From a virus: a stretch of 38,675 bases of DNA. How positions within the stretch are numbered: position 1 is the first letter of the stretch; every line of letters starts with the position of its first letter. The translations under genes and the position numbers were made by a program. The DNA lies in IMG/VR virus record IMGVR_UViG_3300046543_000532, positions 1-38,675 of that record. The stretch is one strand, 5' to 3'. Shown here in pieces: positions 2,423 through 37,700 of the stretch. The notes under the pieces are model-generated. The model made no database searches and was not told the origin of the DNA. It saw only the letters and a program-made list of their open reading frames with translations.

Positions 2423-2857
2423 TTATGCGGCGTCGCCGCTGGTGATGTAACCGTGCCACTCGCATCCGCCGTAGAGCAGGATTGAGGGCGTTGTCGTCAG
2501 ATCGTCGAAGCCGGTGCCGGAGACGTTCCAACGCGTCGGCTCGCCGTTCTTGCCGTGGCATCCCTGCTGCGGCTCGACACCGCGATCGGCAAACGTGACC
2601 TGCAGATAGTGACCCTGAGCCACTCGCAGTCCCTCGGCGTTGGGCTCGTCGGACCGGCTCACGCACTTCGGGCAGCGGAAGAAAATCCCCTGCGCCTCGG
2701 CCAGCGTCTCGACGCGATCCATCTCCTCGCGCGGACCCGTTACTGTCTCGGTTGGATCGCCTGCCTTCCACGTCAGCGGATCACCGATCACGCGCTCCCA
2801 GGTCTTGATGACCGTCTTGTAGCGAATGAACCAGGGGTCGAGGTCGCGGAGTCTCAC
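2423..2857 (-). CDS. Small Cys/Trp-containing protein, possibly DUF6527-like
   Basis: The 144-residue protein starts at the GTG at 2857 within a GTGA overlap with the endolysin stop. An N-terminal helical part (VRLRDLDPWFIRYKTVIKTW) is followed by FRCPKC near residue 60, a QQGCHGKNGEPTRWNVSG segment, then TTPSILLYGGCEWHGYIT at the end. The order of Cys pair, RW strand, PSI and C-WHG-IT resembles the small DUF6527 family common in phages, whose function is unknown. The match is from memory of the motif order, so the family call is tentative. Being translated directly after the endolysin may be only operon organisation. Confidence 0.6.
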   Translation of the reverse strand: MRLRDLDPWFIRYKTVIKTWERVIGDPLTWKAGDPTETVTGPREEMDRVETLAEAQGIFFRCPKCVSRSDEPNAEGLRVAQGHYLQVTFADRGVEPQQGCHGKNGEPTRWNVSGTGFDDLTTTPSILLYGGCEWHGYITSGDAA

Positions 2858-3549
2858 GCGAGTACTCCCGGCATGAGCACCGAGGGAAGTCCGCCGAGGA
2901 GATCGCCGCCCACAACGTTGACGTCGATGTCGCTCGTCTGCAGTCCGAAGCCGGCCGGGATCTCGTTGTCATGCGCGGCGCGCTGCGCCATCGCGAAGCC
3001 GCGCGGCACCGGCGACTGATCGCCCGCGACGTTGTATGCGCGCCAGTAGAGGTCCGCGCCGAGAGATCCGAGCCCCTTCGGTCCGAGCACGGCGCCGGCG
3101 CCGACGTAGCAGCACCGCGACGTGTAGCCGGCCGCCTCGAGCGCGGAGAAGAAGGCCTGGCCGCACGACACGACGTCGGCCGCCGGCGTGTCGAACTTCA
3201 CCTCCTCGAGGTCCCACGCGACCGTCACGCCCTTCGGGATCTGCAGGAGCTCGAGCGCGAGGATCGCCGTCGTCGCCTGCTCGGCGCCGAGGTCGGCGGT
3301 CGGCGACCAGCCCGGGAGTGGCGCGTGCTGCACGATGCCGACGCCGAGACCGGAGAGTAGGATGACCTCGATCTCCGCCGGCGTCACGTCGGTCGAGCGA
3401 TAGTGGTCGCGCCAGATGTAGCGGAACACGAATTCGAAGCCGAGCATCTTGAAGCCGCGCGCGAGCGCCGGCGTGAGCGGCCGGTTGATGTCGAAGCCCT
3501 TCGCGCCGGGCAGGAGCTGCTCGACGCGGGCGGAGGCGAGCGCGCTCAT
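2854..3549 (-). CDS. Endolysin-like DUF1906 (GH25-like) glycosidase domain
   Basis: The 231-residue protein begins MSALASARVEQLLPGAKGFD at the ATG at 3549, coupled to the upstream membrane gene by ATGA. The core has the features of the DUF1906/Rv2525c-like TIM-barrel family related to GH25 muramidases: KGFDINRPLT at the first strand, FVFRYIWRDH, TPAEIEVILLSGLGVGIVQH, the acidic strand VTVAWDLEEV, GYTSRCCYVG, YWRAYN, and QTSDIDVNV near the end. It fills almost one whole domain with no cell-wall-binding module. No signal peptide is seen, so release would depend on a holin. Peptidoglycan cleavage is inferred from the family and from the adjacent membrane proteins. Confidence 0.75.
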   Translation of the reverse strand: MSALASARVEQLLPGAKGFDINRPLTPALARGFKMLGFEFVFRYIWRDHYRSTDVTPAEIEVILLSGLGVGIVQHAPLPGWSPTADLGAEQATTAILALELLQIPKGVTVAWDLEEVKFDTPAADVVSCGQAFFSALEAAGYTSRCCYVGAGAVLGPKGLGSLGADLYWRAYNVAGDQSPVPRGFAMAQRAAHDNEIPAGFGLQTSDIDVNVVGGDLLGGLPSVLMPGVLA

Positions 3550-4016
3550 GGCGTCGGGACTCCCGTCTGCGTCTGGACGATCGTCTGCGTGGAGCTCGCG
3601 ACGACTGCCGGCGCTGGCGCGCGATCGTCGTCTGGCTCGCTCGTCCCGTCCGCCCTCGTGCGCTTCAGGAGACCGACGCAGACCGTGGCGAAGAGGGTCG
3701 TCGCTAGGCCCGCGAGGATCCCGAGGGTTCCGGTCTCGCCCTTCGGACTCGCGAGGACGGCGATCGCGAATTCCACGGTCTTGGCGGCCGTCCAGATCCC
3801 GGCGCCCATTGCGACCGCGGCGAGGAGCCGCGCCATGCTCGCCTTCTTCTCGGCGACCGGATCGCTCACGGCCGAGGCGACGAAGGCGATCACGCGGTCG
3901 AGGCGTCGCTGGAGCTCGTCGGCGATCGCCACGACGCCGCGGCCGGCATACCGGATGATCACGAGCAGCACGCTCGAGCCGATCGCGAGCAGCGCGAGGA
4001 GAGCGACGACTCTCAT
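3546..4016 (-). CDS. Multi-pass membrane protein, holin candidate
   Basis: This 156-residue protein has three hydrophobic segments: about 3-23 (VVALLALLAIGSSVLLVII), 60-88 (including LLAAVAMGAGIWTAAK) and 98-117 (ILAGLATTLFATVCVGLL). A Thr/Pro/Ala-rich soluble tail follows. It is coupled by ATGA to the genes on both sides and lies directly upstream of the endolysin. Three membrane segments followed by a polar tail are compatible with a class I holin, although the protein is longer than many holins. No sequence family is recognised, so the role is inferred from topology and position. The neighbouring 100-, 138- and 46-residue proteins are alternative holins. Confidence 0.6.
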   Translation of the reverse strand: MRVVALLALLAIGSSVLLVIIRYAGRGVVAIADELQRRLDRVIAFVASAVSDPVAEKKASMARLLAAVAMGAGIWTAAKTVEFAIAVLASPKGETGTLGILAGLATTLFATVCVGLLKRTRADGTSEPDDDRAPAPAVVASSTQTIVQTQTGVPTP

Positions 4017-4315
4017 CGCGGATCTCCAGCCTGCAGCACGCGGCCGGCGCCGTGCGGCTGATGGGCCTGCTCGATCGAGTCGATGACCTGCGCCGTGCGT
4101 GCGCGCTCGCGCTGGGCGTACTGGTGGCGCAGCGAATCGTCGTGCACATAGAGCGCGAAGGTGGCGGCGCTCGTGTAGTGTCGATCGAGATACGCCTTCA
4201 CCGTCCCGCCGATCGTGCCCAGCGCGCCGATCGCGGCGCCGATCGCGACGAGCCAGGTCATCGACGTTTTGAGCGCCGGGCCGCCGCGGTAGTAGGTGGA
4301 GGGCATCGGCGTCAC
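4013..4315 (-). CDS. Small single-pass membrane protein in lysis cassette
   Basis: The GTG at 4315 lies in a GTGA overlap with the preceding gene. The 100-residue product has one glycine/alanine-rich membrane segment at about 18-40 (MTWLVAIGAAIGALGTIGGT). A charged helical region follows (LRHQYAQRERARTAQVIDSI). This is the layout of a single-pass holin, antiholin or inner-membrane spanin, and the sequence does not separate these. An internal ATG three codons later (MPSTYY...) could also be a start. Dual starts are known to make holin/antiholin pairs, but here that is only a possibility. Confidence 0.6.
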   Translation of the reverse strand: MTPMPSTYYRGGPALKTSMTWLVAIGAAIGALGTIGGTVKAYLDRHYTSAATFALYVHDDSLRHQYAQRERARTAQVIDSIEQAHQPHGAGRVLQAGDPR

Positions 4316-4728
4316 GGCGTAAGCGACGAAAAGTTCGAGCAGTTCAACCCGACGAGCGCCAGCTCCGACTTGGTCGCGCGGCTCGAGATGCACGTCACGC
4401 GGAGAATGATCGTGAGCTTCTGGTTGACCGAATCGCGCGCGACCTCGCCCTTGATGATGGTCGCCCTGGTCGTGTCGATCTGCGCCTGCAGCCCGACCGT
4501 CGTCTCCTTCATCGTGTCGCGAATCCACTGTCGCGCGCCGAGCAGGAGGAGGAACAGAATCGGCACCGTCAGGATGCTGTACTTCTCCTGGTAATAGCGA
4601 AGCCGGAACCAGAGAGAGCGGTCGGTGACGCGCGTGTAGACGTAGGTCTCGTCGGCCTCCTGCTCGTCGGTCGATCCGCGGACGATGGGCTGCTCATCGC
4701 CCGGACGGTGGACGCGCGTCATCATCAC
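4312..4728 (-). CDS. Single-pass membrane protein in lysis cassette
   Basis: The 138-residue product follows the 46-residue gene with a one-base overlap (TAGTG). GTG at 4728 or ATG at 4725 or 4722 are all possible starts. A hydrophilic N-terminus rich in acidic residues (EQEADETYVYTRVTDR) precedes a membrane helix at about 51-64 (SILTVPILFLLLLGA). A soluble helical domain with VARDSVNQKLTIILRV and two Cys near the C-terminus follows. It is predicted to be inner-membrane with the larger domain outside. Coupling to the other lysis genes suggests a spanin-like or holin-regulating role, without family support. Confidence 0.6.
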   Translation of the reverse strand: MMMTRVHRPGDEQPIVRGSTDEQEADETYVYTRVTDRSLWFRLRYYQEKYSILTVPILFLLLLGARQWIRDTMKETTVGLQAQIDTTRATIIKGEVARDSVNQKLTIILRVTCISSRATKSELALVGLNCSNFSSLTP

Positions 4729-4868
4729 TACAGCCGCTCGCCCTTCAGGAACCGCACGCCGGTCAGCACGGCGACGAGGATGAGGAGCGACACCGGCGTG
4801 ATCGCCAAGTGCGCGAGGACGATCACCACGAGGTAGGCGGCGACCACGAGCAGCATCAGGATGGCCAT
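4728..4868 (-). CDS. 46-residue two-helix membrane peptide
   Basis: The ATG at 4868 has GGAG five bases upstream, and the frame ends in TAG overlapping the next start. The peptide is almost entirely hydrophobic: MAILMLLVVAAYLVVIVLAH, a short LAITP turn, then VSLLILVAVLTGVRF and a KGERL tail. Two membrane segments with a positive C-terminus match the class II holin or pinholin size range. It is the first gene of the lysis operon, directly behind the divergent intergenic region. The role is inferred. Its extreme hydrophobicity, good ribosome-binding site and coupling argue that it is real despite its length. Confidence 0.55.
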   Translation of the reverse strand: MAILMLLVVAAYLVVIVLAHLAITPVSLLILVAVLTGVRFLKGERL

Positions 4869-5038: not shown

Positions 5039-6022
5039 ATGTCAGAGCCAACCGTGGCACTGCCGGAGCAGACAGGTGTTCGCCGGGCCGCGATGATGGC
5101 CGTCGCGATCACGGCGCTCGCGCTGATCTACGCCGCGTACGTGAATCGCAAGCCCGCGACCTTCACGCGAGACTTCGACGTTTTCTATGCCGCCGCGCGT
5201 TTTGTCTCGCAGGGCCGTAATCCGTACGCGCTGATCGGGCCTGGGCAGCTATTCCCGTGGAGATGGCCGTTCTTCCACCCGCTGCCCGGCGCGCTCATGA
5301 TCGTGCCTCTGGCGTGGCTCCCGCTGCCGACCGCCTGGCTCGCCTTTGTCGGTATTACCTGCCTGCTGTTCACCTACGCCCTCGGCCGAGTCGGTGGCAC
5401 GCGTTGGCGATACGTCACGATCTTCTCGAGACCATTTGAAGTGACGCTATTGACCGGACAAATGTCGTTCCTGTTCGCGGCGGCCTACGTGCTCCCCGTC
5501 GTGGCGGCCTTCGCCTGCGTCAAGCCCAACATCGGCGCGGCGATCGTTGCAGCTCGCGCAGACCGACGCACGATCATCTGGGCAGTCATTGGCGGCTCGG
5601 TGCTGCTCGCGCTGAGTTTCGCCCTCCAACCGCTCTGGGTGCGCGACTGGCTCGCCGCTGTTCACCACGATCCGTTCCAGCGACCCGCCGTGCTTCGGTC
5701 GGGCGGGTTCCTGCTGCTGCTCGCTGGACTGAAATGGCGACGACCCGAAGCGCGATTGCTGCTCGGACTCTCGCTCGTCCCGCAGACGCTCGGCATGTAC
5801 GACGCCTTGCCGCTCTTTTTCATCCCGCGCCGCGCGACGGAGTATGTCGCTCTTACCCTGCTCTCCCGCATCGTAGTCTTGATACTCGCCGACGCACGTT
5901 ACGGCTCGATGGACGCGTCCATCATCGCGAGCGGCGATGCCGTCGTGCATTGGATGTTCCTGCCCGCGCTTGCGATGGTGCTCGTTCGCCAGAATCTCAC
6001 CCATCCGATCATCCGGCCTTGA
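5039..6022 (+). CDS. GT87-like (DUF2029) polyprenol-sugar glycosyltransferase
   Basis: This 327-residue polytopic membrane protein runs against the surrounding genes. A first membrane helix (about 17-35) is followed by RDFDVFYAAARFVSQGRNPY (44-63), the hallmark of GT-C family 87, where Asp residues just after the first helix (here D45, D47) are expected to be catalytic. Next come FHPLPGALMIVPLAWLP and a KPNIGAA motif, then further hydrophobic helices to the C-terminus. GT87 enzymes transfer mannose or similar sugars from polyprenyl phosphate at the outer face of the membrane. It is shorter than the roughly 400 residues usual for the family. Its 3' end overlaps the convergent tail fibre gene by 14 bases. 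Lysogenic surface modification is inferred. Confidence 0.7.
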   Translation: MSEPTVALPEQTGVRRAAMMAVAITALALIYAAYVNRKPATFTRDFDVFYAAARFVSQGRNPYALIGPGQLFPWRWPFFHPLPGALMIVPLAWLPLPTAWLAFVGITCLLFTYALGRVGGTRWRYVTIFSRPFEVTLLTGQMSFLFAAAYVLPVVAAFACVKPNIGAAIVAARADRRTIIWAVIGGSVLLALSFALQPLWVRDWLAAVHHDPFQRPAVLRSGGFLLLLAGLKWRRPEARLLLGLSLVPQTLGMYDALPLFFIPRRATEYVALTLLSRIVVLILADARYGSMDASIIASGDAVVHWMFLPALAMVLVRQNLTHPIIRP

Positions 6023-7808
6023 ACCAGTCGGCCAGAAAGAGCGTGGCGGACGCCGAGGCGTTCTTGACCTCGCCGCCGATCCCTACATGCGTCGCTGCAG
6101 CTCCCAGCGTGCTCGTCGAGCCGGTAAAGGCAAGAACATAGGTGCCGGGTAGTCCGTTGAACGAATAGCTATACGTGAGAGCGGTGCCGCCGTCGTAAGC
6201 AATTTCAAAATAGATCCATTGACTGAGCAGGTTCTCGACGCCGTTGACAGCCGCGAGCGTTGTGTCGAACGTATTGACGTCATCGAAGAACAGCACCTTC
6301 GGTATAAAACCCCCGGCGTTGTTCGTGATTCCACAGTAGATAACTCGACTGTTTGCGCTGTTCCGAATCCAGAGCCCCGAACCCATCTCGGTAAACCCGG
6401 CGATCGCCGTAAGCGCCACCTTCGCCCGGCGCTTCCATGCCCCGCCGGGGAGGGACTGTTCGTAGCCACGGATCGTGTTACTGGAAACGGCCTGCGGATT
6501 GATCTGGAGCGCCGAGTCGGCCACGGAAACGGTGGACGTCCCTAGGTTCTGAGCCGTCCAGGCGTTCGCGCTCGCGAAGCGCGTTCCTCCCGTATCGACG
6601 GACGAGCCGATGAAATGATCGTCTGCGGCGTTCGGCACCGCTGTGATCCGATCGATGCTTCCCGTCGGGGTTCGTAGCCGCGCATCAATGACGTAAAAAC
6701 TCGACCCATCCGAGGCGATACGACACCACTCGTCCGGCATCAGACAGATCAGCGACCCGACGATCACATATCCGGAGCTGCTCGCGTTATAGACGCCGAA
6801 TTGGAACTTGTTCGTCGCGCTTGGCAGCGTGAGCGTCAACGGCGCCGTACAGATGAAGGTCTTTCCCTTGTCGGTCGGTGCGACGACGGTATAGTCGGCG
6901 CTCTTCGTCGTGTCGTCGAACAGTTCGAACGCCGGCACGCCGCCGACGCCGGCGATGATGGCCGCGTCGACATAGGCGGTTGTCGCGAGCTTACTCGAGT
7001 TGTCGCTGGGACTCTGTGTCGTCGTCGTCGGTGAACCGGGAAGCGGCGCGCTGCTTTTTACCGAAAAGGTCGTCCCCGACAGATGCAGGGTGCTTTCGTC
7101 GGCGCTGTACGTCGCGCCGGCCCCGAACTGGACGAACGTCAGCGCGGTGGATCCCGGGGTGATCGGCGCGTTCGTCGTGCAGGTCCAGGCGCTGTCGGCG
7201 TTGGCCGTTCCTTCGCTAACGTAGCATGTCGCATTTACCAGCTCGGCGCCCGCGTCCGCATCCGTCGCCCGCGCCGGCGCGCCGCTCGCCGCGACGATAT
7301 AGATCCCGTTCTCGGCCGGCGCCGCCTGGTTCTTAATGAGGAGGCGATCGCCGGTCGCGAGCGTCACGCCGTCAATCGTCTGACCGTTCGCGAACGACGA
7401 CGCCAGCGTTCCGGCGGCCGTCGTCGCGGCGCGGACTTCCTGCTTCCACGATAACCCGGCGATCGCCGCATCCGCCGCCGCTTTCACATAGGCCGTTGTC
7501 GCGAGCTTCGTCGAGTTGTCGCCGGCGGACTGTGTCGGCGCGGTCGGATTTCCGGAGAGCGCCGGACTCGCGAGCGGCGCGAGGGTTGCAATGAGCGTCG
7601 TGAGATCGAGGATCGTCACCCACGCGGTGTTGCCGGCGTTGCGCTCCTTCAGGAGCGCGCCGGTCAGGAGCGTCGTGCCGCCGGTCGTGTCGCGCCACCA
7701 ACAAAACGGTTGCACGTCGTTCGCGGGAACGGTTGACGGATCGGTCGAGCCGATGAACATCAGCGGATGGCACGCGTCCGGCGCGGTGAGCCTATTGTGA
7801 ATCGACAT
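6009..7808 (-). CDS. Tail fibre / receptor-binding protein
   Basis: The 599-residue protein starts at the ATG at 7808 with GAGG upstream. Two copies of a phage tail-fibre repeat are visible: SGNPTAPTQSAGDNSTKLAT at about 84-103, leading into TAYV, and PLPGSPTTTTQSPSDNSSKL near 255, again leading into ATTAYV. Between them lies a beta-rich domain (GDRLLIKNQAAPAENGIYIV). The C-terminal 300 residues resemble a jelly-roll lectin fold by composition (Gly, Ser, Thr and aromatic-rich strands, ending VGIGGEVKNASASATLFLAD). It is the last gene of the tail operon, as expected for the adhesin. Receptor specificity is unknown. Confidence 0.8.
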   Translation of the reverse strand: MSIHNRLTAPDACHPLMFIGSTDPSTVPANDVQPFCWWRDTTGGTTLLTGALLKERNAGNTAWVTILDLTTLIATLAPLASPALSGNPTAPTQSAGDNSTKLATTAYVKAAADAAIAGLSWKQEVRAATTAAGTLASSFANGQTIDGVTLATGDRLLIKNQAAPAENGIYIVAASGAPARATDADAGAELVNATCYVSEGTANADSAWTCTTNAPITPGSTALTFVQFGAGATYSADESTLHLSGTTFSVKSSAPLPGSPTTTTQSPSDNSSKLATTAYVDAAIIAGVGGVPAFELFDDTTKSADYTVVAPTDKGKTFICTAPLTLTLPSATNKFQFGVYNASSSGYVIVGSLICLMPDEWCRIASDGSSFYVIDARLRTPTGSIDRITAVPNAADDHFIGSSVDTGGTRFASANAWTAQNLGTSTVSVADSALQINPQAVSSNTIRGYEQSLPGGAWKRRAKVALTAIAGFTEMGSGLWIRNSANSRVIYCGITNNAGGFIPKVLFFDDVNTFDTTLAAVNGVENLLSQWIYFEIAYDGGTALTYSYSFNGLPGTYVLAFTGSTSTLGAAATHVGIGGEVKNASASATLFLADWFKAG

Positions 7809-7819
7809 GCGTGCCTCGA

Positions 7820-9898
7820 TTAGTGGGATGTGACCGGATTGCCAGCCATGTCGAACACGAGCTCATATCCGCCCATTCCGTCGCGCGAGGTGACAAAGTC
7901 CGTGCTGACCGATCCGCCGGTGGCGGCTTTCGCGGGAAAGAGCACGCTACCGGCGATGGTCTGCATGTCCCCGTAGAGCACCTTGTACGCGATCTGCGAT
8001 TGGCCGGTCGTCGAGAGTGCGACAGAGCCCTCGTAGACGTTGCCGACGCCGGTGATCGAGTGGAACGCGCTCGCGGACGTGTCGCCGCCAACGAGCTCGC
8101 TCATCGTGACGGCGACGACGGAGCCGTCGGGATCGATGATGACGAGATCGAGCCACCCGGTTACGCCGTCGTCGCGCTGTGTCGGGATGATCTGCGGCGT
8201 GCGCGCGGCCGGGAGCGATCCGAGCGGGGCGGTCGTCGGCGTATCGACGACGTCGACGACCGGATCGGCGAGCGAAAAGAGGTCCTGCGCCACCGTGAGG
8301 TTCACCGTGTTGTCTTTCGGCGAACCGAGGTTGACAGCGGTTGCGCGGAGGGCGATCCGCCCATAGTGGCCCGCGTCGTCGTCGAAGCCGAGCCACGGAA
8401 TGTCGTAGAGGCACACGTCGCCGCGCTCGATGTCGAAGCAGGAGCGGGTCAACTTCAGCGTGCCCGCGTAGGCCGGGACGCTGACCGCCTTGAGTTCCCT
8501 GACCGCGACCTGAAGCGCCAGCGGATAATACGTGATGGACGGGAGGCGAATATCCGGCGCCGGGCGGATCGAGCCGGTCGCCGCGACATTGCCGCGGTTT
8601 CTGACGGTGACAAAGTCCTGCTCGAAGAGCTTGTCCGCGTTGCTGAACCAGACCGTGACCTCGTTGAAGGTCGCGAGGAGCTGACTCTGCGCGAGGTCGG
8701 CGTCGACGACCTGCGTCCGGTCGACGACCCGCATGGCGCCGGGATCTTCGGCGCGAATGAGCTTGATCTGGAGCTTGTTGTTCGCGGGATTCCGTCGCGG
8801 CACGGCGCCCGCGATCTGGAACATCTCATTCAGGCGCTCTTTCGCTGCGGCCCGCGTGCCCTGCGTAATGAAGGAGACGCCGATGTTGTCGTCGGCGACC
8901 TGGTTCGCGACGCTGTCCCAATCGGCCAGATCGATTTCGTTGAGCGGACGGGCCAATCCGCCGAACCGGTGCGTGAGCAGCATGAGCGCCGCCGCGATCG
9001 GATTCGCGTCCCCCATGTCCCATGTCGCATCGGCGCCGTAGGTGACGAACGCCATCGCGCTCCGCGAGATGATCGTGCGCGGGTTGATGTTGGCCGCGAG
9101 ATCGAGAAACGCGTGGCCGCTGCTCGGATCGTTGAAGGACTGCACGACGACGATGAAATCCATCGGCGGAGCGGTCGGCCGCATGCCGATGTTCGTGTCC
9201 TCAAACACGACGTACGCGAGATCCTTGTAGCTCGGCAGGTTGCCCATGCCGACGATCGGCTCGAGGTATCCGCAGGGGCCATTCTGTCCGCCGCCGCAAA
9301 AGATTTCGATATTCCCGGTCACGCCGCCGCCGCCGTTCGGCACCTCGCCGCCGTACACCGTCGGGCAGTAAAATTCCAACATCTCGCGCCCACCGTGCAA
9401 GACGAAGGTGAAGGCGTCGACCCCGCCACGCATGCGCTGCTGCGTTGCAAAGGTGACGTCGACCGTCGTGCCGAAGCCGAGGAACCCCTCATGCACTTGC
9501 AGGCTCGTCACCTCCGGCATCGTCGGCGGCAGGTCGGTCAGCGGCATGTTGTCGCCGAAGACGACGTTCCGAATCGACGTCACCGCGCCATGGCAAAGGA
9601 CGCCCATCGCGGTGAGCCGGTAGCGATTGCCGATCGGCTGCGTGATCGGGATGAGTCCGAAGAAGGCGGAGCCGGTCTGCGCTTTGACGACCTCGGTCCT
9701 GACTTGGCCGACGAGCGTAATGATCGGGCGCGCGCGCACGGTTCCGCACGCGAGCGGAATCGTCGTTCCCGTCGTGACATCCGGCGGGACGAAGCTCTGC
9801 GCCGGCGGCGCCTTCGCCCGCGCCGCCAGGTACGAGGTGATCAGCGCCCCGACGAACGCGGTCGCGACGTTGAGCAGGGCGTAGATGAGAAAGATCAT
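7820..9898 (-). CDS. Tail tip / baseplate protein (Phage-tail_3 / J-like)
   Basis: The 692-residue protein starts MIFLIYALLNVATAFVGALI, a hydrophobic N-terminus often seen in tail-tip proteins, at the ATG at 9898 (ATGA overlap with the hub gene). It continues with PLACGTVRARPIITLVGQVR, the entry strand of the GTA/phage tail-tip family (Phage-tail_3). Its middle holds a long mixed domain with NPIAAALMLLTHRFGG and TRAAAKERLNEMFQIAGAVP, typical of the tip protein's second hub domain. It probably seals the tail tube and carries the fibre. The assignment rests on position, size and motifs. Confidence 0.75.
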   Translation of the reverse strand: MIFLIYALLNVATAFVGALITSYLAARAKAPPAQSFVPPDVTTGTTIPLACGTVRARPIITLVGQVRTEVVKAQTGSAFFGLIPITQPIGNRYRLTAMGVLCHGAVTSIRNVVFGDNMPLTDLPPTMPEVTSLQVHEGFLGFGTTVDVTFATQQRMRGGVDAFTFVLHGGREMLEFYCPTVYGGEVPNGGGGVTGNIEIFCGGGQNGPCGYLEPIVGMGNLPSYKDLAYVVFEDTNIGMRPTAPPMDFIVVVQSFNDPSSGHAFLDLAANINPRTIISRSAMAFVTYGADATWDMGDANPIAAALMLLTHRFGGLARPLNEIDLADWDSVANQVADDNIGVSFITQGTRAAAKERLNEMFQIAGAVPRRNPANNKLQIKLIRAEDPGAMRVVDRTQVVDADLAQSQLLATFNEVTVWFSNADKLFEQDFVTVRNRGNVAATGSIRPAPDIRLPSITYYPLALQVAVRELKAVSVPAYAGTLKLTRSCFDIERGDVCLYDIPWLGFDDDAGHYGRIALRATAVNLGSPKDNTVNLTVAQDLFSLADPVVDVVDTPTTAPLGSLPAARTPQIIPTQRDDGVTGWLDLVIIDPDGSVVAVTMSELVGGDTSASAFHSITGVGNVYEGSVALSTTGQSQIAYKVLYGDMQTIAGSVLFPAKAATGGSVSTDFVTSRDGMGGYELVFDMAGNPVTSH

Positions 9899-11499
9899 GC
9901 GGGCGACCCCGTTCCGGTCATCATGAACGCCGTCGTCGTCGCGCGATCGGTATCGTCGACCGGTCTCGGATAGATCAAAAATGCGAATAGGGCGCCGAGC
10001 CAGTAGAACGAGCCGCCTTTCCCGAGCGTGTTGCCGGATGAGTTCAGCCCGATGCCGTAGCCGTTCTCTTGCGGCGTCGTCGTGAAGATGACCTGCCCGT
10101 CGAGCCGCACCGTGTAGCGGTCGGCGGTGGCCGTCCAGTTCAGCACATGCCGACCGCCGCGCAGACTGATCGGCGGACGATAGTTAAACGGCGCGGCGCC
10201 GGCCGCCGAGAGAAAGGTCCCGTCGGTGATGTGATTCTCGGGGAACGGATAGAGGAGGAACGCGTTGACGGCCGCGCCGCTGCCAACCATGGAAATAATC
10301 GAGCGAATGTCGGCAGCCGGGTCCTCGACGGAATTGAATGCGAGAAACGCATCGATCTGCGAGAGGGACGACAGATCGGGCCCATCGAACCAGGTTGCGG
10401 CGCCTCCGATTCCAGAATGCCCATACGGAAGCTCGACGCTCGACGGGCCGAGGCCCATCGCTCCGCTACCGTCGTATCCTGGCCGCCGCGTCGGGTCGGT
10501 CTGCGAGAGATCGCGACCGTTGCCGCTCTGGTCGGCCCAATTCGAGACGTTGCCCGCGACATCCGTCGTGACCCCAATGCCGGCGTCCCAAAGGCCGAAC
10601 TGTGCTGGCGTCGTGTAACCGACCAGCGGAGGCACGTGCGGGACAAAGGCAATGAGTGCGTCCGGGCCGCCGTGCGATTCGAGGTTGTCGAGCGGGTTCG
10701 ACGTCGGGAGCCACTTGAAGCCGAGGAACTCGTCGAGGTTGTCGAACTTGTCGCGGCAGGTCTCATGCGTGAGATCGTCCCCGGCGTAGAGCGTCGCTGC
10801 GGCGGGAAGTGTGAGCCCTCGCGGCAACGCGCCGAAGATCGTGACGGCCGTCCCGACCTGCTTGGGCACGTGCCAGAACTGATTCCCGATCTTCAAGATG
10901 CCGAAACTGAAATAATCGTCGGGCCGACCGCCGACCGAGTCGACGGTCACGGCCGCGCCGACGGCGGCGGTCACATTGCAGGCAGTGGCGAACGCGTCGG
11001 GATCGACGCCGCACTCGGCCGAGTAGGTGTCCTTCTGGCAATGCGTCGAGAGGATCGCGCGCGGCGCGAGGTTCTCCCAATACGCTTCTTCGGTCTGCAG
11101 CTCCAACGTGCACCAACCGCGCGTGACTCGCACGTTCGCGATGTTGCCGAAGGCCCACCGCGCCGGATTCGCGCTCTCGCTCCCCGCGCTGACGTGGTAG
11201 CGATGAATCCCGAGATAGCACGCCTCCGTCTGATTCGTGCGGAGCGCGTCCACGACCTCGGCGCGAATGCCGATGCGGACGGCGATCCGCTGCGGGCCGA
11301 GATCGTCGCGCCGGTCGGTGTCGCCGTCGACCTGAATCTGCGCGGCCGTGTAGGTGAGCCCGGTCCGCAACACTGTGACGTCCGCGTTGCCTTGGACGTA
11401 CCGCCACATCCGCGTCCCGACGACGAACGTGAACAGAATCTTCGGCTTGCCGCCGAGCCGTTCTGCCGCCGCCCACGCACTGCCGAGGAGGGGACTCAC
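9895..11499 (-). CDS. Baseplate hub (BR0599/Gp84-like) fused to LamG-like domain
   Basis: The 534-residue protein starts at the GTG at 11499 (GTGA). Its first half matches the Phage_BR0599/Gp84 C-terminal family: CQKDTYSAECGVDPDAFATA near 155-175 and THETCRDKFDNLDEFLGFKW near 245-265, with the four conserved cysteines. From about residue 300 a second domain begins (FGLWDAGIGVTTDVAGNVSN, then WADQSGNGRDLSQ), a typical concanavalin A/LamG-like opening. It runs to the C-terminus with jelly-roll strands. GTA-type hub proteins usually lack this half. The fusion probably adds a glycan-binding module to the tail tip. Confidence 0.7.
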   Translation of the reverse strand: MSPLLGSAWAAAERLGGKPKILFTFVVGTRMWRYVQGNADVTVLRTGLTYTAAQIQVDGDTDRRDDLGPQRIAVRIGIRAEVVDALRTNQTEACYLGIHRYHVSAGSESANPARWAFGNIANVRVTRGWCTLELQTEEAYWENLAPRAILSTHCQKDTYSAECGVDPDAFATACNVTAAVGAAVTVDSVGGRPDDYFSFGILKIGNQFWHVPKQVGTAVTIFGALPRGLTLPAAATLYAGDDLTHETCRDKFDNLDEFLGFKWLPTSNPLDNLESHGGPDALIAFVPHVPPLVGYTTPAQFGLWDAGIGVTTDVAGNVSNWADQSGNGRDLSQTDPTRRPGYDGSGAMGLGPSSVELPYGHSGIGGAATWFDGPDLSSLSQIDAFLAFNSVEDPAADIRSIISMVGSGAAVNAFLLYPFPENHITDGTFLSAAGAAPFNYRPPISLRGGRHVLNWTATADRYTVRLDGQVIFTTTPQENGYGIGLNSSGNTLGKGGSFYWLGALFAFLIYPRPVDDTDRATTTAFMMTGTGSPA

Positions 11500-12170
11500 G
11501 ATCCCGGCGTCTCGTTGGGCAACTCGACGACATGTACCGTGAACTGCGCGGAGTCGTCGCCGAGCTCGACCTGCTCGATTTCGTCATCCGCGAAGCGGAC
11601 ATACCGGAGCCACGATGGCCGCACGCCTTTCGCTTCGGTGAAGGGCGGCGCGACGAGCGCGCCGAGGCCCGCCACGCTCGGATCGTAGCCGATTTTCTCC
11701 CAGGTCGTGCCGCCGGGATCATTGTCGGCGACGCTCTGCGCTTCGATGATCGCGTAGAGGTCCGCGTACAGCAGGAGGACGTGCCGGTAGGCGTGGCCGA
11801 GCGCGTAGAGCGCGCTATAGTCGCAGCCCTTCACCCACAGGAAATCGTGGTGCCCGTCGACGTGCAGATACCTGTCCTGGATCTCAAATTCCCATTGCCA
11901 CGTCGGCATCCAGAAGCCGTCGTGCGCGCCGAGGCAGCTATCGAAGAAATCCTCGAGCGCGCGCGTGTCCGCGCGGCTTTCGGTGACGAACGTGTACTGG
12001 CGAATGGCGCCCGGCGGCGCGGACACCGTCTCGACGACCCGCGGTCCAGCGATGGCCTCCGCGATCGCCCCGCTGGCCGTGCGCACGAGCGGCTTGCTGT
12101 CGACCGCGTGCGGCATCATCAGCAGCAGCGGCTTCGTCAGATAGGTCGCCGTGTTCGTGACGGCGGTCAT
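11496..12170 (-). CDS. Distal tail / hub-associated protein
   Basis: This 224-residue protein begins MTAVTNTATYLTKPLLLMMP at the ATG at 12170, coupled by ATGA. The segment ALEDFFDSCLGAHDGFWMPT (near 90-110), continuing into WQWEFE, is characteristic of tail proteins that precede Gp84/BR0599-type hubs. In these a length-limited FF-G-FWxPT block links beta domains. It has no membrane segment. Its order (distal tail, this protein, hub, tip, fibre) is conserved in many high-GC siphoviruses. The exact role in the baseplate is not known. Confidence 0.65.
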   Translation of the reverse strand: MTAVTNTATYLTKPLLLMMPHAVDSKPLVRTASGAIAEAIAGPRVVETVSAPPGAIRQYTFVTESRADTRALEDFFDSCLGAHDGFWMPTWQWEFEIQDRYLHVDGHHDFLWVKGCDYSALYALGHAYRHVLLLYADLYAIIEAQSVADNDPGGTTWEKIGYDPSVAGLGALVAPPFTEAKGVRPSWLRYVRFADDEIEQVELGDDSAQFTVHVVELPNETPGS

Positions 12171-13039
12171 AGGCCGATGTGCGCCGAGACGCCGAGCACG
12201 GTGACCGTCAGCGTCGGGCTAAGCGCGCCGTTGTTGCGGACCCGCGCGGCCTGCTTGCCGATCGCGATGTGCAGCTCGAGGGTCGGATCGGAGCTGCTCA
12301 GCGACCAGGTCGCGTTGACGTCGATGATCGGCATGTTGTCGGCGTCCCGCGCGTCGACGATGATGGTGTTGTCGTGCCCCGGCTGACCGTTCAGCGCCCA
12401 GACGTTGAATAGGCTGATCGAATCGATGACGGGCGTGAATGCGCCGGTGACGCTGGGGTCGATGCCGGCGATGACAGGGAGCTCCTCGCGGAAGACGAGC
12501 GGGACGACTTCGCTATAGGACTGCTCATTGATCGTCGGCGGATCGAGCCAGGCGTTCATGGCCGGCAGGCAGATCACTGCCCCGATCTGGTAGGCGCCGG
12601 AGAACGGCGCGGTGGCGACCACCGTCGATGACGTGACGGTCTGAATCGTGAACGTCTCCCAGGCGATTTCGTCGTCGACGAATTGCCAGAGTATGGCCTC
12701 TTGGCCTTCGACGAACCGGCGATCGGTCGTGTCGCACGTGACCGTGTCGCCGGCGATGGCCGTCGGATCCGCGCGCTCGCGCCAGAGCGGGACCTGAAAC
12801 CGGAGCGGCTGCAGCGCCGCGTACCACATCGACCGAAAGACGCCGGCGTCTCGCGCGTTCTCGAAGACCGCGGAGAACGACTGCCGGCGCGTCGGCAGGT
12901 CGCGCGTCGCGATGCGCGTCTCGCTGCCGTCGTCGGCGATCTGAATATCAGTGGCCCACGTGCGCGCGACGCGGATGGGATCCGGCCCACCGGGCGGCAG
13001 AATGAAGACGGCTGGGGCCGCGAGGGCGTCCATCGGCAT
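12167..13039 (-). CDS. Distal tail protein
   Basis: The 290-residue product follows the tape measure directly: its ATG at 13039 shares one base with the tape-measure stop. It contains ARTWATDIQIADDGSETRIA near 25-45, ENARDAGVFRSMWYAALQPL, and FQVPLWRERAD. These motifs are seen in phage tail proteins that cap the tube before the hub. The last 90 residues (from about 200) form a beta-rich Ig-like domain ending SAHIGL. Tail completion or distal-ring function is inferred from position next to the tape measure gene. Confidence 0.65.
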   Translation of the reverse strand: MPMDALAAPAVFILPPGGPDPIRVARTWATDIQIADDGSETRIATRDLPTRRQSFSAVFENARDAGVFRSMWYAALQPLRFQVPLWRERADPTAIAGDTVTCDTTDRRFVEGQEAILWQFVDDEIAWETFTIQTVTSSTVVATAPFSGAYQIGAVICLPAMNAWLDPPTINEQSYSEVVPLVFREELPVIAGIDPSVTGAFTPVIDSISLFNVWALNGQPGHDNTIIVDARDADNMPIIDVNATWSLSSSDPTLELHIAIGKQAARVRNNGALSPTLTVTVLGVSAHIGL

Positions 13040-15750
13040 CAGCTAGTCCCGACGATACTGCGCACGCGGTTCCGGTTCGCGTGCAGGTTCGTGATCTGGA
13101 TATCCACGCCCTCCGGCGAGCGCAGGAAGTCGCCGATCAGCCCGGGCGCGAGCGAGATCTGGCCGTCGAGTCGGCCGTGAATGCCGCCGGCGGCGCCGCT
13201 GAGCGTCGTCGCCCCGACCACACCGCCCTCCGCGAAGCGGCGCACGACGAGCGCGTTTCCCGCATTGAGCGCGTTGACACCGGACTCGCCGATGCGCTGC
13301 ACCGTCCGGGCGGTGAGGAACCCTTCGCCATTCGACACACGCGCGAGAATCGAGTCCGACGTTCCGGTGCCGGGGCCTCGGATCACGCCGCCGGCCGCCT
13401 TGCCGCCGATCACGGAGATGCCCGGAACGCCCTGTGCGACGATCGCGTCGATGAGCGCTCCGCTGCCATCGTCGCCGGCTGACCCATCGAAGAGGCCGAG
13501 CGCCTTCGCGATCCGCTGCACCGCGATCTGGGCGAGCAGCTGGCTGATGACGCGCTGGATCGAGTGCAGGATCGACTCGGCCGCGAGCGCCCACGCCTCG
13601 CTGAGCGACTTGGCCCCCGTCACCGAGTCGTCGATGCCCTGCGCGAGTCCGTTTTCCAGCGCATCGAGCGAGGCGATCTTGAGATCGTGGAATTCGTCCG
13701 ACGTCGCCGCGATCCCGAGGTTGAGCTGGAGCAATTCCGTCGTGTACTTCTCGAGCTGGGCCTGCGCCTGCGCGTCGCCCGGGAGTAACGCGGCCATGCG
13801 CTGGAGCTCCGGGATCGCCGACGCGACCGCGTCGCGCTGCTTCGTCAGCTCGGCGACGGTCTGTGATCGCGCGTCGCCTGGCGAGATCGTGCGAGCCTGC
13901 ACCTGCAGGTTGATCCGCTGGATCGCCGACTGCGCCGCCGTGATCGCCTGCTGAGCCGTCGCCTCGATCTGCCGCGCCTGCGCGGCCTCGACGATGCCCT
14001 TGATCCGCTGGCGAATCGCGTCGAGAGCGGCTTGGTCGCCGGCGGCCGACGCTTCGAGGATCGCGTCGCGGAATTCTTTCTGGACCTGGATCGCCGCGGC
14101 TTGGACGAACTGCCCCTGCTGCTCGAGCGACTGAACGTTGATCTGCTCGATTTCGCTGGCGAGCTGGCGAGATACCTGCGCCGTCTGCCGGGCGGCGTCG
14201 GTGTTGATCTTGACCCGTTTCGCCGCAGCGTCCTCGGTCGCCTTCGTCTGCTGCGCCGGCACGTCGTTGATCGCCGATTGAATGGTGCCACGCTTGGCCG
14301 GATCGGTCGTCGCGGCGAGGAGCTTCTGCTGCTCGACGAGCTCCTGGCCGATCGCCTTGAGCCGCGCCTGCTCCTCGGCGTTGATCTCGACGATGGCGGC
14401 ATCGCGGCGCGCGTTGATCGCTTGGCGCTCGCTGATTTCGCGCGCGTCGCGGGCGTCCTGAATGATGGCGTCGGTCTGCGCCTGCGCGTCTTTCGCGCTG
14501 GCGATACGCGCCTCTTCGATCGACTTGATCGCTTTCGCTTCGGCGGCCGCGCGCGCTTCGGCGGTGTGCTGGATCTCTTCGGCGGTGATCGTCGCGAGTT
14601 CCTGGTCGCGCTTTCGCTTCGCCGCGTCGACGGCGGCCTGCTGCTCGCCCTGGACCGTGGCGATCGCGTCCAGATGCCGCTTCGCGTTCTCGAAATCCTG
14701 CTCGGCGGCGAGCCGGCGCGCCGCGAATTCGCCCTGCGTCGCCTGCACGCGGAGCCGCGACGTCTCTTGATCGGACTGTCGCTGGGCATCGTCGAGCTCC
14801 TTCACGACGTTTTTGCCGCGCTTCAGGAGGTCGCGATTGAGCGATCCGGCCCGATCCTGCAGCGCCGAGAGTTGCTTCTGGAGTGCATCGACCGCCGCCT
14901 CGTTCCCCGTGACCGGCGGCGCGCCGCCGGGGCCGAACGCCGAGGCGGGAGCGGACTGCCGCGCCTGCGCCTGGAGCTTTGCCAGCGCGTCCTGCGTCGC
15001 ACGGATTTTGGTGTTCGTCTCGTCGAGCGAGTTGCGCAGCGCCTCAGTCGAGGTGTTCTTCTCCATCTCCTTGGCGAGGTCCGTGAGCTCTTGCCGCGCC
15101 GACTTGGACTTCTTCGCCACGTCGTCGAGAATGCCGACAAGGGTGGCCCCGACCGCGATGAGCGCGCCGATCGCGACAGAGGTGCCTAGCGTCGCCCCGC
15201 TCACACTGAGGGCGCCGACCGCGACGCCGGCCATCTCCGACGCAACGGATTTGAGATTGAATGCGCCCGTCGCTGCCGAAATCGCGAGCCCATCGATGGA
15301 CGTCGCCATGCGTCGCACCGCGAAGGTGCTGGCGCCAGCACCGCGGCCGAATCCGTCGGTCGCCGTGGCCGTGTTGTTGATCGCGATCGACGCGGCGCCC
15401 GCCTTCTGCTCGACCTGCGAGATCGTGTTCCCGATCCGGTTGAGCTGCGCGTCCGTCGCGCCGAGCTTGGCGAGGTAGCCCGAGATCGCGTCGCCCTGCG
15501 CGCGGAAGTTGGCGACGGCCTTCTGGCTCGTGACATCGATCTGTGCGCCGAGCTTCTGGAACGCGCCGATGCCGGCGTTGATCGACGCGAGATCGGTGAC
15601 GCCCTGTTTGCTCTGGGCGGCCGTCTGCGCGAGCTCGGTGCGCAGCGCCGCGAGCTTGAGCCGGAAGTTGTCGACCGTTTGCGATGCGCCCGATTGCTCC
15701 CGGACGCCAATCGCAATGTCGATGTCGTCGCCGCCGCCGCTGAACCCCAT
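13039..15750 (-). CDS. Tail tape measure protein
   Basis: This is the longest gene (903 residues). The N-terminus is helical, with a hydrophobic segment near 170-205 (VGALSVSGATLGTSVAIGAL) suited to membrane insertion during DNA entry. Residues 210-700 are mainly Ala/Gln/Arg/Glu coiled coil. The C-terminal GGVIRGPGTGTSDSILARVS and FAEGGVVGATTLSGAAGGIH segments are typical of tape measures. By the known rule of about 0.15 nm per residue the tail would be near 135 nm. It is translated 8 bases after the frameshifted chaperone, its usual partner. Confidence 0.9.
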   Translation of the reverse strand: MGFSGGGDDIDIAIGVREQSGASQTVDNFRLKLAALRTELAQTAAQSKQGVTDLASINAGIGAFQKLGAQIDVTSQKAVANFRAQGDAISGYLAKLGATDAQLNRIGNTISQVEQKAGAASIAINNTATATDGFGRGAGASTFAVRRMATSIDGLAISAATGAFNLKSVASEMAGVAVGALSVSGATLGTSVAIGALIAVGATLVGILDDVAKKSKSARQELTDLAKEMEKNTSTEALRNSLDETNTKIRATQDALAKLQAQARQSAPASAFGPGGAPPVTGNEAAVDALQKQLSALQDRAGSLNRDLLKRGKNVVKELDDAQRQSDQETSRLRVQATQGEFAARRLAAEQDFENAKRHLDAIATVQGEQQAAVDAAKRKRDQELATITAEEIQHTAEARAAAEAKAIKSIEEARIASAKDAQAQTDAIIQDARDAREISERQAINARRDAAIVEINAEEQARLKAIGQELVEQQKLLAATTDPAKRGTIQSAINDVPAQQTKATEDAAAKRVKINTDAARQTAQVSRQLASEIEQINVQSLEQQGQFVQAAAIQVQKEFRDAILEASAAGDQAALDAIRQRIKGIVEAAQARQIEATAQQAITAAQSAIQRINLQVQARTISPGDARSQTVAELTKQRDAVASAIPELQRMAALLPGDAQAQAQLEKYTTELLQLNLGIAATSDEFHDLKIASLDALENGLAQGIDDSVTGAKSLSEAWALAAESILHSIQRVISQLLAQIAVQRIAKALGLFDGSAGDDGSGALIDAIVAQGVPGISVIGGKAAGGVIRGPGTGTSDSILARVSNGEGFLTARTVQRIGESGVNALNAGNALVVRRFAEGGVVGATTLSGAAGGIHGRLDGQISLAPGLIGDFLRSPEGVDIQITNLHANRNRVRSIVGTS

Positions 15751-20263: not shown

Positions 20264-21334
20264 TTACAGCGCGGCCGGATCCGTGTACGAACCGTGGCCG
20301 AAGTCCAGCACCGCGCCGTTCGTCCGCGTCCACACGCCGAAGCCGTACTCGGACTGCATGAACTTCGACTGGAGCGGGAACGTGACGATCTCGGCGACCG
20401 GCTTGAGGATGATCTGCTCCGGCGTGTTCTCGCGAACGCGGGCGACGAGCGGTTTGCCCGCGTTCGGGCTCACGTCCATGCACACCGCGTAGCCCGCGAT
20501 CGTCCACGGCTTGACCCACACCTCGGCCGCGCCGTAGAGGCCGATCGGCCGGTTGTTGGTCTTGAACGGGTTCAGCCGAACGGTCGGCTCGTTCGACGCC
20601 GTGTTCAGCGTGAGCCTGGAGTCGATGTACGGCTTGAAGTTCGTCAGCGCGCGCCACGTGACCTCGTCGGCCACGTTGATGAAGACTTGCGGCTGGCCGT
20701 TCTGGTGGTGCTCGACGACGGTCGAGACCAGCGAGTCGGCGTGCGTCGTGTCGAGCGACGCGTTGGCGAGGTAGTGCGTGTGCGTCGACGGGTCGAACGT
20801 CTCGCCGTTCGGGCCGGTCGGGATCTCGGCGCCGTCGGCGTTGACGAAGCGCTTGACGCCGATCGAGAAGTTCCGGACGAGGAAGTCGCGGAACGTGTAG
20901 TTCGTCGCGCCGTAGATCGCCGCCGCGAGATCGGAGCGCACCTGGAGCGCGTGGCCGTTCTGCATCGCGACCTGCGTCAGCGCGAGATCGCGCGGCGTGG
21001 CGCGGGACAGGTAGTCGGCGGACCAGCCGTTGGCGCCCTGGTAGCGCCGGAGCGGGAAGCCCACCGCGGATCCGCCGGTCGCCTTCTGTGTGTGCGATCG
21101 GCCGAACTCGTCGACCTGGCTGAAGCGCACCGTCGAGCCAGCGGCGTACAGGCGCTGGATGTCCGGCGACACGGCCGCGAACGTCGAGACCATGTCCGTC
21201 ATCAGCGCGTTGTGGATCGCCATGTCCTGATCGAGGATCGTCTGGATGGCGTCGAACCCGAACTTTTCCGCCGAGAGGAACCGGACCTCGAGGAGGTCCT
21301 TGATTCCCAAGTTGCCTACGTTGGCCGGGGGCAT
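20264..21334 (-). CDS. Major capsid protein
   Basis: The 356-residue protein starts at the ATG at 21334 with AGGAG upstream. It is a mixed alpha/beta protein without signal or membrane segment. Segments compatible with an HK97-like fold include the N-terminal helix (IKDLLEVRFLSAEKFGFDAI), FSQVDEFGRSHTQKATGGSA, VSTVVEHHQNGQPQVFINVA in the spine/P-domain region, and a C-terminal strand set ending GAVLDFGHGSYTDPAAL. Order (scaffold, decoration, capsid) supports the call. No motif is unique to the family, so the fold is inferred from size and context. Confidence 0.85.
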   Translation of the reverse strand: MPPANVGNLGIKDLLEVRFLSAEKFGFDAIQTILDQDMAIHNALMTDMVSTFAAVSPDIQRLYAAGSTVRFSQVDEFGRSHTQKATGGSAVGFPLRRYQGANGWSADYLSRATPRDLALTQVAMQNGHALQVRSDLAAAIYGATNYTFRDFLVRNFSIGVKRFVNADGAEIPTGPNGETFDPSTHTHYLANASLDTTHADSLVSTVVEHHQNGQPQVFINVADEVTWRALTNFKPYIDSRLTLNTASNEPTVRLNPFKTNNRPIGLYGAAEVWVKPWTIAGYAVCMDVSPNAGKPLVARVRENTPEQIILKPVAEIVTFPLQSKFMQSEYGFGVWTRTNGAVLDFGHGSYTDPAAL

Positions 21335-28071: not shown

Positions 28072-29541
28072 TCACGCTCCGTGCGAGACGAACGATCCGC
28101 CGCGCGGCCGCCCGTTCGTGTTCGGCTCGTCGCGCTGCCGAATCATCGGCGAGAGCGCGTACCGCGCCGCGTCCCACGTGTGGTCATTCCCATCTTGCAG
28201 CACCGGGAGCACCTCCTGGGTGCGCGGGTCGACCTTGTACCGCCAGAGCCGCGCGTCCTGCACCGCCCGTTTGCATCTCGGGTGTATCACAATTTCCGCA
28301 TACGTGCGGAGATGCGCAATGCCGTCCTCGACCGAGCCCTTCCACTTCCGCGCGGCGATGACGTTGAGCTTCCGCTTGCGCATCTCGTGGATCGTCTCAG
28401 GTCGCGCGGCATCCGCCCGAATCTCCCGCTGGACACCGGACCGGACATCGAACACGCCCGGCATCTCCTTGAACGCCGCCGCGGTGGCGTCGTTGTCGAG
28501 CTGCACGCCGCCGGCCTCGTAGTCAACCCAGAGGCGCGAGTCGGCGACCCAGAGCCGGACGAGCTGCGTCGGGTCGTGCGAGAAGCCCCAATCGGCGCCG
28601 TAGTACGGCCCCTGCCACGACGGCAGCGCGACGAACTCCGCGACGCGCCACTTGCCGTTCAGCACCTGCGCGTCCGAGCGTGACCACGGCTGGCCGCCCC
28701 AGACGTGCGCGTGCGCCTCGGGGTCTCGGACGAGGAGCGTTGCTTGCTCGTCGTGCAGCACTTGCGGCAGCCAGGGATTGTCCTTCCAGCTCACGGGCCG
28801 GATGATCGCGTTGGGCTCCGGGTTGACGACGAACTTCGCGTAGGTCGCGTCCGTGGGCAGCGCCGGGTTGAACGAGACCCAGATCTCGGAGCCCTCTTTC
28901 CGGATCGTCGGTGTCAGCGTGCCCCACGACTGCGCGGTGACCGACTCCGCCTCCTCGACCCAGCAGATGTCAACGCCCTCGGTGGATTTGATCTGCGCGA
29001 TGTCCTTCCGGAGTCCCTTGAAGATGAACTCCGTGCCGTTCTTGCCGACGATGCTCGACGCGCCGATCTCGTAGAACCCTTGGAGCGTGAGCGCGCGGAT
29101 CTGGTCGGAGAGCAGCTTGTGGACCGAGTCTTTGATCGAGCTCTGGTACTCGCGCGCGCAGAGGATGCGGAGCTTTTTCGTCCGGCCATGCGCGAGCAAC
29201 GCGCGGGCGAAGTTCCAGCTCGAGCCCTTGCCGCGTCCGCCGTACGCGACGCGGTACCGCACGGAGCCGAGCGGCGGGTCGTAGAGATAGCCGAACGCTG
29301 GCGGAGTCGCCACGTCGATCGTGGAGCTCGGCGCCTCGTCGTCTGGCGTCGCCTCAGTCGGCTCGCTCGCGACGAGCGCCAGCACACGTGGCGCGGCACC
29401 GGGGACGCGCACGACGACCTCGCGCCGATCCTGCGCATCGTGTTCGACGCCGTTCGCCTCGCTGTCATCGGTGACCAGCTCGACCGATCGCTTCGGCGCG
29501 AAGATCGTCTCGAACGGGTGCGCGCGAAGGCGGAGGCTCAC
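28072..29541 (-). CDS. terL: Terminase large subunit (PBSX-like)
   Basis: The 489-residue protein starts at the GTG at 29541 (GTGA overlap). The ATPase part has GGRGKGSSW (101-109) at the Walker A position, DICWVEEAE (191-199) as Walker B with the catalytic acid, and NPALPTDATY as coupling motif. The nuclease part has YYGADWGFSHDPTQLVRLWV near 315, KWKGSVEDGIAHLRTYAEIV, and NDHTWDAARYAL near the end. The Walker A loop is unusual: the Lys lies two residues early relative to the common G-[SA]-GKS order. An 80-residue N-terminal extension is also atypical. It packages DNA into the head. Confidence 0.9.
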   Translation of the reverse strand: MSLRLRAHPFETIFAPKRSVELVTDDSEANGVEHDAQDRREVVVRVPGAAPRVLALVASEPTEATPDDEAPSSTIDVATPPAFGYLYDPPLGSVRYRVAYGGRGKGSSWNFARALLAHGRTKKLRILCAREYQSSIKDSVHKLLSDQIRALTLQGFYEIGASSIVGKNGTEFIFKGLRKDIAQIKSTEGVDICWVEEAESVTAQSWGTLTPTIRKEGSEIWVSFNPALPTDATYAKFVVNPEPNAIIRPVSWKDNPWLPQVLHDEQATLLVRDPEAHAHVWGGQPWSRSDAQVLNGKWRVAEFVALPSWQGPYYGADWGFSHDPTQLVRLWVADSRLWVDYEAGGVQLDNDATAAAFKEMPGVFDVRSGVQREIRADAARPETIHEMRKRKLNVIAARKWKGSVEDGIAHLRTYAEIVIHPRCKRAVQDARLWRYKVDPRTQEVLPVLQDGNDHTWDAARYALSPMIRQRDEPNTNGRPRGGSFVSHGA

Positions 29542-37482: not shown

Positions 37483-37700
37483 GCGGCCACCCTCTTTTTC
37501 GCGCGCTGCGCGAGGATGTCGAGCACGAGGCCCCACTGCAGCCGGCGGTCGCGCCCGATCTCGATCCAGGGAAGGTTGAGCTGCTCGACCTTCTCTTTGC
37601 TGATGCGGAGCGCGGCCATGACGTGTTCCGGCTGCACCATCGCGTCGTGCGGGAAGGTGACGAGCGGCGGGAACGCGGTGTCGTTGGTTGGCGTCGTCAC
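37479..37700 (-). CDS. xis: Excisionase-like small HTH protein
   Basis: The 73-residue protein starts at the GTG at 37700, in a GTGA overlap with the DUF6745-like gene, and stops in a GTGA overlap with int. The region QPEHVMAALRISKEKVEQLN, then LPWIEIGRDRRLQWGLVLDI, fits an HTH_17/excisionase fold: two helices followed by a short wing (IEIGRDRRLQW). In this position it would direct excision and perhaps repress the integrase promoter. Confidence 0.6.
   Translation of the reverse strand: MTTPTNDTAFPPLVTFPHDAMVQPEHVMAALRISKEKVEQLNLPWIEIGRDRRLQWGLVLDILAQRAKKRVAA

Follow-up and report, generated by a model that had tools for sequence, protein, structure and literature searches.

A glycosyltransferase gene between the lysis and tail-fibre genes of a phage

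Why should a phage carry the gene for a polytopic membrane glycosyltransferase beside its tail fibre, and on which host structure might the encoded enzyme act? The question is raised by IMG/VR virus record IMGVR_UViG_3300046543_000532, the whole stretch of which (38,675 nucleotides) was analysed here and is referred to as the window. The gene lies at positions 5039-6022 on the plus strand, with an ATG at 5039 and a stop codon at 6020-6022, and encodes 327 amino acids, in which the motifs RDFDVFY and GRNPY form residues 44-50 and 59-63, respectively. Lysis-like genes flank it on one side (2854-4868, minus strand), including an ORF with an Rv2525c-like glycoside-hydrolase domain (2854-4149, minus strand), which is an endolysin candidate whose true start is probably further in, and a hydrophobic ORF of 46 aa, predicted to span the membrane twice and holin-like by eye (4728-4868, minus strand). 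On the other side, the tail-fibre gene (6009-7808, minus strand) converges on the glycosyltransferase gene, and their 3' ends overlap by 14 bp. The genes for the tail proteins (7820-15750), capsid (20264-21334) and terminase (28072-29541) are, like the fibre gene, on the minus strand, so that all other scanned window genes with an assigned function run opposite to the glycosyltransferase gene. Coordinates, motifs and strands thus agree with the sequence-only reading, which had described an opposite-strand ORF with both motifs between lysis genes and fibre. The fibre gene also contains a 71-bp direct repeat (6961-7031 and 7477-7547, 80% identical), which encodes a repeated SDNSSKLATTAYV-type segment.

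The ORF is a real gene, since about 60 homologues, the retention of family-invariant motifs and an identical twin contig place it beyond chance. The twin, IMG/VR contig 3300046836_000411, is 100% identical to the window across 14,019 bp, both borders of the glycosyltransferase gene included, which rules out a chimeric contig. The moron position proposed earlier is borne out by a moron-like place and by codon usage that is the least phage-like of 15 genes (-1.18, compared with -0.63 to -1.10 for the other 14; GC3 0.79). This atypical codon usage is compatible with recent acquisition, although the fibre gene is almost as atypical. No promoter-like or terminator-like signal was seen at the gene, and no Tad gene was recognised among the scanned ORFs of the phage. 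Lysogeny of the window phage is unproven, because no integrase was recognised among its genes.

A short GT87-like family concentrated in Gemmatimonadota

In a Pfam scan (hmmscan), the sole match of the window protein was GT87 (PF09594), at E 7.3e-5 and 23.1 bits over residues 78-278, below the curated cut-off of 25 bits; the stop-to-stop frame of the ORF scored 24.7 or 27 bits. Only 4 of 33 members of its family matched PF09594 at E<0.01, and no match was obtained in NCBIfam, PHROGs and PDB searches with the window protein or in a PDB sequence search with the family alignment A1, which comprises these 33 sequences. Profile-profile comparison, in turn, matched the family to an alignment of canonical Gemmatimonadota GT87 proteins (A3) with 97.9% probability and to PimE with about 98% probability over the N-terminal two thirds (hhalign), and the canonical proteins of A3, from the phylum of Gemmatimonadetes MAG G051, matched PimE in the PDB at E 2e-23. 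A membrane-composition artefact was ruled out as the source of this link, as none of 23 other polytopic proteins exceeded 15.7% against the glycosyltransferase profile, compared with 97.9% for the GT87 alignment and up to 88% for single GT87 sequences. Hydropathy analysis yielded approximately 8-9 membrane segments and placed D45 in between segments one and two. AlphaFold models built without a deep alignment (pLDDT 45 for the window protein and 40 for the two phage proteins) were too poor for fold comparison. Judged by these profile comparisons, the family is GT87-like and probably of the GT-C type, forming a branch separate from canonical GT87. The earlier assignment is retained as far as a GT-C/GT87-like enzyme class is concerned, but the protein is not a clean member of the Pfam family.

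Homologues surfaced only through whole-genome searches, in which about 60 were found in cellular genomes at 26-41% identity (the best at 38% over residues 24-323, E 3e-49). The phylum of G051 contained 57 matches in 19 of 298 genomes, at 31-41% identity, while that of Terriglobia MAG G052 (Acidobacteriota-type) contained one strong and several weak matches in 297 genomes, and that of Methylococcales MAG G053 (proteobacterial) a single interrupted 66-residue fragment and no full-length match in 249 genomes. The window protein belongs to a separate family of roughly 300-400 aa, concentrated in Gemmatimonadota. Its shortness relative to typical GT87 proteins had been described correctly, but it reflects the length of the entire family and not a truncation. 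The rarity of GT87 in phages, also claimed earlier, is supported by the absence of any PHROG match for the window protein or 13 canonical GT87 proteins, and by 50,697 phage records in which no match to the window protein, a host family member or canonical GT87 was found.

Linkage of the host family to Tad-pilus loci

Around many of the host members are genes for a Flp pilin, an A24 prepilin peptidase, RcpC/CpaB, a secretin, a T2SSE/TadA-type ATPase, T2SSF and TadG, which together make up a complete Tad locus. In 15 of the 19 carrier genomes, TadE and a family copy shared a contig and lay no more than 25 kb apart (at most 1.24 expected at random); the distance was within 15 kb in 12 genomes (upper bound of expectation 0.75) and within 10 kb in 9 (0.5). 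TadE was present in 16 of the 19 carriers, compared with 53 of the 296 genomes sampled from the phylum (Fisher p 9e-11); several carriers are close relatives and not independent, so that these figures are inflated by kinship. The 19 carriers span several clearly different lineages, and two of them, G070 and G120, bear the family without TadE. A profile search of the 37 other TadE-positive genomes returned no family member, so that the family is characteristic of some Tad loci only. As a control, canonical GT87 was found in 30 of 61 genomes of the same phylum; 3 of these 30 encode TadE, each time on a different contig from GT87, and canonical GT87 in this phylum shows no link to Tad loci.

Host members often occur in tandem arrays, as in G213, where nine copies occupy the part of one contig from 43 to 81 kb, around its Tad locus. 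Some array neighbours are GT2 and UbiA genes, which resemble polyprenyl-phosphate sugar synthases and decaprenyl-phosphate phosphoribosyltransferases but score below curated cut-offs, and the arrays also hold methyltransferase, sulfatase-family and PMT_2-like genes. A further polytopic family, about 510-550 aa long and lacking any Pfam match (L187:914-2566, with relatives in G209, G103, G080 and G330), is encoded in the same Tad loci; it was the top-scoring control against the glycosyltransferase profile and is possibly another GT-C family. The tie between the glycosyltransferase family and the Tad pilus is one of guilt by association, and the true target could be a different surface polymer whose genes lie close to those of the pilus.

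Phage carriers and the probable host

When IMG/VR was scanned with a different alignment of the family, a second carrier emerged, contig 3300010400_000008 (L239, 56.7 kb), which encodes a 304-aa member (E 3.9e-66) that keeps the conserved Asp, Tyr, Gln and Lys. This contig is a phage, containing a terminase, portal, head protease, endolysin and tail proteins; the glycosyltransferase is the sole protein that it detectably has in common with the window. Its glycosyltransferase gene lies a short way downstream of the tail genes, on the opposite strand, and two genes away lies a HAD-IIIA phosphatase resembling the heptose-bisphosphatase GmhB (L239:9426-9938). The two phage proteins fall in different clades of the family tree; a joint clade was, however, not rejected (p-AU 0.23), and the idea of two independent captures was set aside.

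The window terminase shares at most 63% identity with terminases of other IMG/VR contigs, which have almost no other gene in common with the window, making this an orphan, mosaic phage; GT87 was found in none of 49 records with a related terminase. No homologue of the window capsid was detected in 296 Gemmatimonadota genomes, and the C-terminal domain of the fibre has no relative besides that in the twin contig. The tetranucleotide profile of the window is nearest to some Gemmatimonadota loci, yet overlaps Methylobacterium and so does not discriminate between hosts. The affinities of the glycosyltransferase point to Gemmatimonadota, which we infer to be the probable host. At its edge, the window begins exactly at a perfect 26-bp palindrome (1-26, TACACCATCGGGCGCCCGATGGTGTA), just 13 nt past which the twin contig reaches, and which may represent a genome terminus or an assembly break. 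Near the other end, positions 37697-38251 encode a phage protein with a strong DUF6745 domain (E 9e-46).

A possible role in modifying the Tad pilus or a surface glycan

Modification of the O-antigen receptor by phage genes is well documented (PMC11436027), Tad pili serve as phage receptors in Caulobacter (PMC11067988), and in Pseudomonas pilin glycosyltransferases, of the GT-C type or otherwise, protect against pilus phages; for example, pilin glycosylation, for which TfpW is a GT-C enzyme, shields P. aeruginosa from such phages (PMC11841053). Against this background, the window gene may encode a phage-borne GT-C glycosyltransferase that attaches sugar to the Tad pilus of the host or to another surface glycan and thereby changes receptor access, a proposal to which we give an even chance and in which we infer the activity, host, acceptor, donor sugar, effect on adsorption and benefit to the phage. 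The enzyme would be inserted into the host inner membrane, take a sugar from a host-made polyprenyl-phosphate donor, and transfer it, on the periplasmic face of the membrane, to an acceptor on the host surface. The likeliest acceptor would be the Flp/Tad pilin, or else a glycan associated with the Tad pilus, which is the first candidate because of the Tad linkage of the host family. The surface altered during infection or lysogeny would then reduce adsorption of phages that use it. Masking of the receptor of the phage's own fibre by this enzyme, suggested in the sequence-only reading, is conceivable as a hypothesis.

An enzyme of the same class could instead target LPS, O-antigen-like or exopolysaccharide chains, in the manner of the P22-type gtr genes, with the Tad linkage reflecting a shared adhesion or surface island. 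The glycan-building set in the host arrays (GT2, methyltransferase, sulfatase-family, PMT_2-like and UbiA genes) and the GmhB-like phosphatase in the second phage are consistent with such a target, and phage glycosyltransferases known so far are mostly O-antigen-directed (PMC11436027). However, neither GtrA nor GtrB was detected in those window ORFs near the gene that were scanned, which gave only lysis, fibre and tail matches, and canonical GT87 proteins of the same phylum, which likely serve such polymers, lack Tad linkage. We consider a polysaccharide target unlikely, although a serious contender.

Extending the Tad-pilus proposal, part of the Gemmatimonadota may sugar-coat their Tad pili by means of a lineage-specific, multi-copy GT-C family, from which at least two unrelated phage lineages captured members, re-decorating the pilus to control adsorption; this wider scenario is put forward tentatively, as somewhat short of an even chance. 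It would represent a pilus-directed counterpart of O-antigen seroconversion, whereas phage surface-modifying enzymes so far concern almost exclusively the O-antigen, and pilin glycosylation against phages is known from Pseudomonas type IVa pili. It would also tie a phage gene to an apparently undescribed set of Tad-pilus glycosyltransferases in a poorly studied phylum, and it predicts glycosylated Tad pilins in these bacteria, with a sugar that controls phage binding. The open literature (subscription journals being outside its scope) yielded no relevant paper on GT87 together with phages, on Gemmatimonadota Tad loci together with glycosyltransferases, or on phage-encoded GT-C glycosyltransferases.

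Conserved residues and the question of activity

The aspartate D45 (codon at 5171-5173, plus strand), located in the first extracytoplasmic loop, is kept in 58 of 59 aligned sequences (98% of the family), which answers the earlier call to check a conserved Asp, here by sequence alignment. As the only near-invariant acidic residue of its loop, D45 is taken as the putative catalytic base; in the hhalign comparison it falls on PimE D55, three positions ahead of the catalytic D58, in a pairing that includes a 2-residue gap and depends on its placement. When PimE was added to the alignment, Q141 (5459-5461) paired with Q163, K162 (5522-5524) with K195, a phosphate ligand, H80 (5276-5278; all plus strand) with Y92, and Y50 with Y62, and in PimE mutation to Ala of each of these four residues abolishes activity (PMC12041525). 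Invariant or nearly invariant positions in alignment A1 comprise D45, P62, Y63, Y80, P81, P90, Q141, K162, P163, P198, W200, W204, G223, W233, R234 and P248, all of which are kept in the window protein except Y80, a Tyr in 58 of 59 aligned sequences that is replaced by His. The near-invariant W142 and R17 are also lost, and most of the 23 invariant or near-invariant family columns checked are kept. The substitution by H80 of a near-invariant Tyr whose counterpart is essential in PimE means that activity of the window enzyme could be lost.

If the gene were instead a host capture in decay, or one that had taken on a non-catalytic function in the membrane, it would have no receptor effect; such a reading is in keeping with these losses, with the poor codon match and the lack of obvious expression signals, and with the longest branch of the family tree, which belongs to the window protein (1.49-1.52). 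This explanation is nevertheless improbable, given that the frame is open over its full length, that D45 and nearly all other invariant residues are kept, and that the member in the second phage keeps its Asp, Tyr, Gln and Lys. Truncation of a typical GT87 enzyme in the phage, which the partial Pfam match over residues 78-278 might suggest, is very hard to credit, because family members are short throughout and distinct from the canonical GT87 proteins of their phylum, rarely match PF09594 (4 of 33), and, in the alignment with PimE, conserve no counterpart of W319, H321 or H322.

Comparison with known systems

The closest known counterparts are PimE and the Pfam GT87 family of polyprenyl-phosphomannose-dependent mannosyltransferases, with which the N-terminal two thirds of the window family align at 98% hhalign probability, and in which the positions of the first-loop Asp, the Tyr/His-Pro, the Gln and the Lys correspond (PimE residues from PMC12041525). 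However, the window family is about 80-100 aa shorter, its C-terminal third is diverged and without equivalents of PimE W319/H321/H322, the window protein scores below the Pfam cut-off, and the genomic setting of the family is Tad-linked. The arabinosyltransferase TfpW, which acts on group IV type IV pilins of P. aeruginosa, is likewise a GT-C enzyme adjoining a pilus locus, and pilin sugars block pilus phages in that system (PMC11841053); TfpW, however, is a cellular, single-copy enzyme of Pseudomonas serving a type IVa and not a Tad pilus. The gtrABC genes of P22 and SF-type phages and the O-antigen modification of phage D3 provide a precedent for phage-carried surface modification that hinders superinfection (PMC11436027), whereas the window gene is without detected GtrA/GtrB partners, and its relatives sit at pilus loci instead of O-antigen loci.
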